DNA of 64,000 nt from Paramarasmius palmivorus (lineage: Eukaryota; Basidiomycota; Agaricomycetes; Agaricales; Marasmiaceae), in assembly GCA_037176845.1 (NCBI GenBank), contig JAYKXP010000003.1, positions 434,001 through 498,000 of the forward strand, read 5' to 3'. This document shows positions 35,759 to 42,338 of this stretch, piece by piece; position 1 is the first letter of the stretch, and the number at the start of each line of letters is the position of its first letter. The notes beneath the pieces are model-generated. The model saw only the letters and a list, made by a program, of their open reading frames with translations, did not search any database and had not been told where the DNA came from. Both the position numbers and the translations under genes were made by a program.

Positions 35759-37610
<1,852 letters not shown>

Positions 37611-38021
37611 GGTGTAGCGAAGCAAGGAAATGTTGTAGCATTCTGACATGTACTTGTATTTACAACCAATGAAAGAAGGCCGAACACTTGTCTTCCTTTG
37701 GCAAACTCAGAGTGGGCACATTCGTATCTAAGATCTGAGCAGTGAGTTCATGGATTCTCGTTCAAGCAACTACATGCATATGGTAAATTTCGGACGACTC
37801 GAAAGGATATGTAGATGGTCCACAAAAAATTCATTGAGATAACTACAGATAAATACACAACAAAGCACACTCCAAAGAGCAACGCAAGGCCAAAAATTCT
37901 TCTAGTAAAAAAACGCAAACTCTACAATCCATTTGCTGCATCCCGCAACGCCTCAAACAGAAGCATCACAAAGAAACACAGCAAAAAGAAAGCGAGAAAG
38001 CGAATCCCCAAGAGAGGATTC
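37611..38021. other. Spacer between formaldehyde dehydrogenase and U2 snRNA
   Basis: The 411 nt are A-rich and Lys-codon-like on the plus strand, giving spurious basic frames, but nothing coding is supported. It holds the 3' end of the dehydrogenase transcript and the 3' flank of the U2 gene. Confidence 0.5.
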
Positions 38022-38211
38022 CCCTGACGACACAAGCCAGTACTGCAGTAGCAAGGTCATCGTGCCTCCGAGTTGCAAGCAGAGCTCGAAGGGCGGGGGC
38101 GGCAAAAATTGTATAACCTTCAATAATGGCGGTGCCATTATACAAGAGGTTAATCTTGTAAGAACAGATACTACACTTGATCTAAGCCAAAAGGCCAGAG
38201 TGGTAAGGAAT
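38022..38211 (-). ncRNA. U2: U2 spliceosomal snRNA
   Basis: Read on the minus strand, this is a complete U2 snRNA. The invariant 5' domain GGCCTTTTGGCTTAGATCAA continues with GTGTAGTATCTGTTCTT at 38196-38160, including the branch-site recognition GTAGTA at 38174-38169. Stem IIa is a perfect hairpin (ACAAGA/TCTTGT, 38159-38142). Stem IIb is AATGGC/GCCATT (38139-38125). The Sm site ATTTTTG is at 38109-38103. Stem III pairs CCTTCGAG with CTCGGAGG (38092-38065), and a stem-IV-like GATGAC/GTCGTC closes near 38026. A TATA box lies about 26 nt upstream. The 5' end (about 38211) and 3' end (about 38022) are set by comparison with known U2 length and may be off by a few bases. Confidence 0.94.
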
Positions 38212-38230
38212 CACAATGTTGGGGCGCGGC

Positions 38231-38237
38231 TTTTATA
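38231..38237 (-). promoter_or_regulatory. TATA box of the U2 snRNA gene
   Basis: The sequence TATAAAA on the minus strand ends about 20 nt before, and begins about 26 nt before, the inferred U2 5' end. This is the right place for a core promoter element of an snRNA gene. Confidence 0.7.
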
Positions 38238-38356
38238 GGTTTCCGGAGTGCGCACGGACCATGTTGAGGCACGTGCACATAGGTGTAGCTGCGGCAGCGT
38301 ATGCCCGAAATTCGCGCTTGAGCTCTACGCTCACACAAAGTCCTCAGGACGGGCAA

Positions 38357-39030
38357 ATGGAAGCCACACAACGTGAATATGGGCAGGGGAAGAACCATAT
38401 CAATGACCATGGTGCGTATCTCTACAACAGACTCATGCTCAACTCTTGACATTTCTAATAGCTACGAACCAACCCACTTCCAGCGTCGTGGAAAGCGAAG
38501 GCTCTCGAGGACTTGTACAAGACCCCAATAATAGTGTTGATAATGGGGGACGTGAGTCTCTGTAATTCTGACAACTCACTCCGCTCAACTTTTGCTATGA
38601 ACCTAAAGAACCACGATCCTTGAAGACGACAACTCCGGAAATACAAATTCTAAAACGCAAATATATGAGAACAATCACTTTATTGGTTCTCATCACCGCC
38701 ATCGACATCAGCCTCCTCTTCTTTGCGTCTGCGCCCATCACAGACTTTATGCAAACCGTTACTGGACTGAGAGTCCTCCTCGTCACCTCCGCCTTATCCG
38801 CCCTTATTGGTATTCGTGATCTTCTCAAGCTTCTCAAGGAGAACGTGCCAGTGCCAGCGAGTATCGACCCGTCGACGCACCGTTTTGTCGCATACGCCTG
38901 GATACACCTCTTAGGAGTTCTTTTTCCGATACTAGCTGGGTATATCGTTACCCCAGAGGTTCGGAGATCGGCGAGCCATGTATTTCTGGTGTTGTTGATA
39001 TCTTTCTCGTTTTTGGTTGTTGGCTGGTAA
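38357..39030 (+). CDS. Small four-helix membrane protein of unknown function
   Basis: Three exons (38357-38411, 38462-38551, 38609-39030) close in phase to 188 aa. The first 70 residues are hydrophilic (SSVVESEGSRGLVQDPNNSV region). Four predicted membrane spans follow: TITLLVLITAIDISLLFFAS, GLRVLLVTSALSALIGIRDL, VAYAWIHLLGVLFPILAGYI and SASHVFLVLLISFSFLVVGW. The protein stops directly after the last span. Basic residues between spans (KLLKEN, RRS) would sit in the cytosol. I recognise no family. The frame is open further upstream of 38357, with another ATG at about 38263, so the start is uncertain. The promoter lies between this gene and the oppositely oriented U2 gene. Confidence 0.6.
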
Positions 39031-41354: not shown

Positions 41355-42338
41355 ATGTCAAAACTAGCCAAGGATGCTGCAGCTTTCAAATCAGTTCTAC
41401 AGCGTCAGGATTATACTTCATGGCATTCTCAGCCTCCTCCTTTGGGTGGTTCAGCTTCTGTTACTAGTGGTTCAGGGAGTGCGAGTGCGAGTACAGCAGC
41501 AGCAGCAACAGCAGAAGGCGGAGAAGGGGAAACCGCGAAAAAGAAACGACCGAAAAGCAATGTCGTCTACTCTCAACCTGCAGATACGGGCTCTGGAAAA
41601 GAATGGAGTACTCAGTTGGTTTATGCTGTTGACTATCTCAAAGTGTGTCGTTTGAATATCCCATCTACATTCAACTAACAAACCTATGAACAGACAACAC
41701 ACAACCCAATGCGTCTACAAGACCTCGCCATCTACACTTCCACCGAAGTAGACACAAATCCTACTCTTATCGAAAAACTCCGTAGTCACGAACGAGTTCA
41801 ATGGGACCCAAAAACAGATCTATACTCGTACAAGCATGAATTCAACTTTCGAAACAAAGCCGCCTTGTTAACCGAAATCCAACGTCAGACTACGAAAGCT
41901 GGCGGTGGAGGCGGTGGGATCCCCGTACGTCTCCTCAAGGAATCATGGAAAGAAGCACCTGCGGCTATAGAGGAACTAGAGGCGTCTGGTGACGTCCTAG
42001 TAACGCGTACGACGAAAGATGGTCAGCTCAAGATGGTGTTTTGGAACGAGCTCAAGCCAAGCGAGGAGAATGGGGGTATGAGTGTGGAGAAAGAGTTTAG
42101 TGATTTATGGCACGAGCTCAAGGTCCCGAACGAGGTAGACTTGTTGAGGCAGCTGCAGAACGAAGGGTTACAGGCTACGACGTCTGCTGCTGGAGCAGCG
42201 TCGGCTGGGAAGGGAGTTGGACCAAAGAAGAAGGGCAAGAGAGGAGGCGCACCAAGGCAGAGACAAGTCAGGATAACGAATACGCATTTGAAAGGAGAGA
42301 TCGATCTTTCAAAGGACTATACGGGGCCAGGAAAATAG
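41355..42338 (+). CDS. TFA2: Transcription factor IIE subunit beta
   Basis: TFIIE-beta is part of the RNA polymerase II preinitiation complex. Two exons (41355-41642, 41694-42338) give 310 aa. An Ala/Ser-rich N-terminus of about 70 residues precedes two winged-helix domains. The first contains WSTQLVYAVDYLKTTHNPMR plus LQDLAIYT, then RVQWDPKTDLYSYKHEFNFR. The second has LTEIQRQT, GGIPVRLLKESWKEAPAAIE and LEASGDVLVTRTTKDGQLKM with VFWNE. The C-terminus is basic (GKGVGPKKKGKRGG, then RQRQVRITNTHLKG), as expected for the DNA/Pol II-contacting tail. The open frame starts with TTG upstream; the first ATG is at 41355. The mS34 gene is convergent, 80 nt between stops. Confidence 0.94.

Follow-up and report, generated by a model that had tools for sequence, protein, structure and literature searches.

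The window, a 64,000-nucleotide stretch of a Paramarasmius palmivorus contig, carries one of six dispersed U2 small nuclear RNA (snRNA) genes, which is very probably (probability about 0.88) transcribed by RNA polymerase II (Pol II) from a PSE-like upstream element, here called element A, together with a TATA box. The sequence identity, structural landmarks and copy number of the gene are established, as is the promoter geometry it shares with other snRNA genes of the genome. By its sequence the locus is a genuine and ordinary U2 gene encoding a major spliceosomal RNA of an already known kind. In itself such a gene is routine and closes an annotation gap; what is new here is the promoter comparison.

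A search of the window with Rfam release 15 covariance models yielded a single family above its gathering score, U2 (RF00004), which scored 113.8 bits (gathering score 46; E 3e-22). The match is on the minus strand and full length, covering model positions 1–192 of 192. ARAGORN detected no tRNA genes in the window. An initial annotation had placed a complete minus-strand U2 gene at 38022–38211 and recommended the Rfam comparison, and its proposal holds. The Rfam match starts 5 nt downstream of the annotated start and extends 4 nt beyond the annotated 3' end. The true 5' end is not fixed by sequence. If U2 starts as far from its TATA box as U1, in which ATACTTACC marks the 5' end, its first base would be A38204. 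Two spurious reading frames overlap the gene, as had been predicted. The neighboring dehydrogenase-like gene has a large exon matching ADH_zinc_N in Pfam (E 8.4e-20), and CTAAY lies 14–18 nt before the 3' end in four of its six introns, with boundaries set by eye. Coordinates of all features are collected in the table.

Table. Features of the U2 locus and its surroundings (positions in the window)
Feature	Position	Strand	Basis or remark
U2 snRNA gene	38018..38206	-	Rfam model bounds, RF00004
Likely 5' end range, U2	38204..38211	-	Inferred; 38211 from initial annotation, A38204 from TATA distance as in U1
Stem-loop I	38181..38199	-	Rfam alignment and string
GTAGTA, branch-site pairing sequence	38169..38174	-	Rfam alignment and string
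Stem-loop IIa (TACAAGA/TCTTGTA)	38141..38160	-	7 perfect bp; fold and string
Stem-loop IIb (TAATGGC/GCCATTA)	38124..38140	-	7 perfect bp; fold and string
AGGTTA, alternative stem IIc strand	38114..38119	-	Pairs with TAACCT 38147–38152 in IIa loop; string
Sm-like site AATTTTTG	38103..38110	-	String
Stem-loop III	38065..38092	-	Rfam alignment and string
Stem-loop IV, C at 38048	38027..38063	-	Six-copy alignment and string
TATA box TATAAAA	38231..38237	-	At -31 from model start
Element A, TGGTCCGTGCGC	38250..38261	-	At -55; proposed PSE-like upstream element; sole exact match in window
CACGTG	38270..38275	-	At -69
Zinc-dependent alcohol dehydrogenase-like gene, spliced	36099..37610	+	Ends by eye; tail to tail with U2
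Open frame on other side of U2	38620..39030	+	No Pfam match
Spurious frame over U2	37933..38238	+	101 codons
Spurious frame over U2	38171..38452	-	93 codons
TFIIE-beta fragment	41709..42338		100% identical to Paramarasmius palmivorus protein

The U2 landmarks named in the initial annotation (5' domain, GTAGTA, stems IIa and IIb, Sm site and stem III) are present. Exact string matches placed stems I, IIa, IIb, III and IV, GTAGTA and an Sm-like site, and their succession is that expected of a U2 RNA. Stems IIa and IIb are the perfect hairpins it described and both form in the minimum-energy fold. Folding, which had also been proposed as a check, was otherwise uninformative: overall stability is unremarkable (z -1.40, with 14 of 200 shuffles equally stable), and folding energy was dropped as support for U2. 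Compared with RF00004, the window U2 shares the full-length match, GTAGTA, stems I–IV and an Sm-like site, and differs in the letters of stems IIa and IIb, the GC end of the Sm-like site and one change in loop IV. The Sm site consensus is purine-A-U4-6-G-purine; in all six U2 copies the corresponding site (AATTTTTGC) has C at the final position and ends GC rather than G-purine. A switch between stems IIa and IIc is known from other eukaryotes. Read by eye, two of the six IIc pairs look changed on both sides relative to the Rfam consensus, as would be expected if the switch is kept; the twelve IIa/IIc bases are identical in the six copies, which add no covariation evidence.

The first T of the TATA box is 26 nt from 38211, as had been noted, and 31 nt from the model start at 38206. 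Element A and CACGTG, further upstream, go beyond the initial finding. We compared snRNA genes across the P. palmivorus genome (68.3 Mb, 393 contigs), comprising eight U1, six U2, two U4, three U5 and seven intact U6 genes; there was also one U6 3' half above cut-off and one sub-threshold U6 match. All 16 U1, U2 and U4 genes (eight, six and two, respectively) have a TATA box, together with an exact element A no more than 80 bp from the start. The position of element A is -56 in all eight U1 genes (seven measured, and L069 placed from aligned sequences), -55 in four U2 genes and -63 in another (contig C68), and -59 and -58 in the two U4 genes. The U2 gene on contig C4 has a copy with one mismatch at -54 plus an exact copy at -76. 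With TATA at -33 in U1, -31 in U2 and -34 or -35 in U4, the spacing of the two elements is nearly constant: -56/-33 in U1 and -54 or -55/-31 in five of six U2 genes. The U2 and U4 genes, where element A first came to notice, and the three U1 genes detected through it do not count as independent cases; five further U1 genes were found by DNA similarity to one of those three, and every one of them carries it. CACGTG at -69 to -71 is less general, occurring in six of eight U1 and three of six U2 genes (window copy included) and in none of the two U4 or ten U5 and U6 genes. A T5 run occurs inside U2 and U4, within the Sm site, which argues against RNA polymerase III (Pol III) at these genes.

In animals and plants, snRNA promoters have a PSE or USE near -55 with a TATA box. 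The P. palmivorus genes resemble these in having an element near -55 common to several snRNA genes and, in U1, U2 and U4, a TATA box near -31 to -35. They differ in the word itself, which is also frequent elsewhere in the genome, and in the presence of another element and no TATA box at U5 and U6. A layout of PSE or USE plus TATA is given for animals and plants in the available part of PMC1796607. We propose that element A is PSE-like by position only; it is not classed as a PSE because only 16 of its 153 genomic copies are at U1, U2 or U4 genes.

Those 153 copies of TGGTCCGTGCGC compare with 5 of the reversed word, and their distribution shows that the word is not dedicated to snRNA genes. 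Element A could instead be the general site of an ordinary transcription factor, used here as in many mRNA genes with no SNAPc-like reader, an alternative that we rate somewhat below even odds. Besides the abundance of the word, this reading draws on locus L096, where by eye an element A and TATA site precedes an apparent protein-coding start, and on the 21 of 47 non-snRNA sites linked by BLAST into three groups, which indicates that element A has partly spread with repeats. It is opposed by the nearly constant TATA distance at snRNA genes, compared with a TATAWA 6–30 nt behind element A in just 10 of 137 non-snRNA copies, and by an encoded homologue of SNAPC3 (PF12251), present in two pieces scoring 34.2 and 31.7 bits (cut-off 23.8). 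Genome-wide, the combination of element A and TATAWA at this distance occurs at 25 places versus none for the control, and 15 of these are snRNA genes, a count that excludes the C4 U2 gene, whose nearer copy is mismatched and whose exact copy lies outside this distance range. When up to two mismatches are allowed, the window holds five element A matches versus 3.7 expected, so that only the exact copy is informative there. Element A is thus a frequent, non-dedicated word with a nearly constant place in every U1, U2 and U4 gene found.

We read 58 of the 153 element A sites individually (11 snRNA genes and 47 others), with five more lying in snRNA loci. Eight of the ten non-snRNA places with TATAWA (L048, L093 and L097–L102) form one similarity family, having TATAAA 14–15 nt behind element A, and two are single. 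At L095 (C33:486168), no obvious reading frame is seen in the sequence behind element A and TATAAAA, and the locus may be another small RNA gene of the Pol II type. Reading frames showed no direction bias at 39 element A loci: among frames of at least 140 codons starting within 900 bp, 23 were downstream and 24 divergent. Of ten open frames beside element A sites, four matched a Pfam family at E 0.001 (one UDPGP, one MMM1 and a pair of F-box-like matches, of which one was under its cut-off), and these revealed no common theme. No Rfam match above gathering was obtained at 33 non-snRNA element A loci, a weak negative given that the scan also passed over a U1 gene (L036) and half a U6 gene (L059). 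A search for fungal SRP RNA gave no match, and its control was likewise without signal. On contig C32 (289811–289879), CTAACCCTAACCCTA lies about 40 bp upstream of an element A site on the same strand.

The six full-length U2 genes lie on six contigs and score 113.1–117.9 bits, all above the gathering score. They align without gaps at a mean column identity of 97%; columns 3 to 91, which include stems I, IIa and IIb and GTAGTA, are invariant, and variation begins after column 91. A 23-base U2 core had no match in viral contigs. The stem IV loop is the binding site of U2B'' in animals, and here the window copy alone has C at 38048 (ACTGCAGTA) where the other five have T (ATTGCAGTA). The locus might on this account be a pseudogene or a little-used variant, with U2 supplied by the other five genes. 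We regard this as unlikely: the gene is complete and untruncated, shows no other departure in its 5' 90 nt, and retains CACGTG, element A and TATA intact at their usual distances. The same substitution, in a loop that binds U2B'' in animals, means that another of the six copies would serve better as a U2 reference, which weakens the suggestion that the window copy would be a useful basidiomycete reference; that it is a genuine gene still stands. That the RF00004 match is due to chance or a contaminant is refuted by sequence and has a negligible probability, given its E-value and full length, the promoter that the six copies have in common, and a contig and neighboring gene that match the named mushroom, the TFIIE-beta identity also bearing out the presumed basidiomycete origin (Agaricales, Marasmiaceae).

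The U1 genes illustrate that promoter elements find genes that Rfam misses here, three having been detected by means of element A and five more from their similarity to one of these. The Rfam U1 model had no match genome-wide, and none in L036 at E up to 10; the eight genes were identified by ATACTTACC at the 5' end and the multi-branched fold of one copy. The 3' flanks of all eight (L067–L074, e.g. L068:1690) are otherwise divergent and share a T-run followed by CTAACCCTAACCCTA, which equals two and a half telomere repeats. CTAACCCTAAC is present in 15 U1-bearing loci, in none of 87 other loci, and is absent from the window. Across the genome, the 15-mer without an A three bases before it gives 17 matches versus 2 for the control: the eight U1 genes, two contig ends (C33 and C40) and seven others. 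This telomere-like flank word may act as a signal for the 3' end or as a roadblock, recognized by a protein that binds telomere repeats. Among the matches listed, telomere-repeat papers lack the phrase 'U1 snRNA gene'.

The ten U5 and U6 genes have a different promoter. None has sense element A in the 1.5 kb covered, and none has TATAWA in the last 60 bp. Instead, all three U5 and all seven U6 genes share element B, GTGnnTGTRAYRCAAnC, often followed by AAAC, at -58 or -59. The U6 gene L016 (C105:106802) has a variant element B, listed at -56 where the pattern starts later within the element; this gene also has a reversed element A at -81. The strict pattern matches 15 places versus 3 for the control: nine U5 or U6 genes, one broken U6, three near-identical sequences and two sites elsewhere. 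Since the U5 and U6 genes themselves supplied the pattern, part of this excess follows from how it was built; this does not apply to the constant distance. Two further observations concern this class. At L054:1501–1650 (C13:351864), the sequence following element B at +59 folds into a pair of strong hairpins (-43.8 kcal/mol over 130 nt), with a T-rich stretch behind them; it has no Rfam match and is possibly an undescribed Pol III-type RNA. On contig C42, one U6 gene is split between L059 (C42:348843) and L017 (C42:351745), the two parts being separated by about 2.8 kb of inserted sequence. The ends of this insert resemble inverted repeats, and the six bases ATACAG flank it on either side, a footprint of the kind that a DNA transposon leaves.

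The presence of element B at all three U5 genes as well as U6 suggests that the U6 machinery makes U5. We suggest tentatively that U1, U2 and U4 form a Pol II class with element A and TATA, and that U5 joined U6 in a TATA-less element B class that may be transcribed by Pol III; Pol III at U5 is hypothesized, with rather less than an even chance of being correct. The Sm site is AAUCUUUGG in all three U5 genes versus AAUUUUUG in the Rfam consensus, such that the T-run of the consensus is broken by AATCTTTGG in each. No T5 occurs inside U5, and T5–T6 follows at +131 to +138. U6 genes have T4–T6 after the gene at +116, L016 ending with T4 only. T-runs were rejected as proof of Pol III at U5, since U1 behaves alike: in seven measured copies it has no internal T5 and T7–13 at about +177, yet it carries the element A and TATA promoter.

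Mushroom promoter papers, in the parts available, treat U6, for guide-RNA use. The accessible text of PMC9318071 describes Flammulina filiformis U6 as having no TATA box and gives the motif GGTAATGCAAAACT, which element B resembles; that paper was the sole mushroom paper among the literature matches to GGTAATGCAAAACT. TATA boxes are also absent from Ganoderma U6 and from two of three Stropharia U6 genes in the portion of PMC13117603 available, whereas Poria U6 promoters are reported with TATA boxes in that of PMC9441760. Unlike these accounts, which in their available parts concern U6 only, element B here is found, at an equal distance, at three U5 genes as well. A piece of element B led, by title, to medical subjects among the matches listed, and no title among the open-licence matches listed dealt with element A or with fungal U5 genes that have a U6-type promoter.

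For the window U2, we infer the polymerase, binding factor, 5' end, expression and assembly from DNA as follows. A factor, possibly a SNAPc-like complex, would bind TGGTCCGTGCGC at -55 and TBP the TATA box at -31; Pol II most likely transcribes the gene, starting at about 38204–38211. The RNA would take an Sm ring, and its GUAGUA would pair with CUAAY-type branch sites. If the proposed grouping of U5 with U6 is true, it would represent an unusual polymerase change for a major spliceosomal RNA. The promoter comparison makes mushroom snRNA transcription directly testable.
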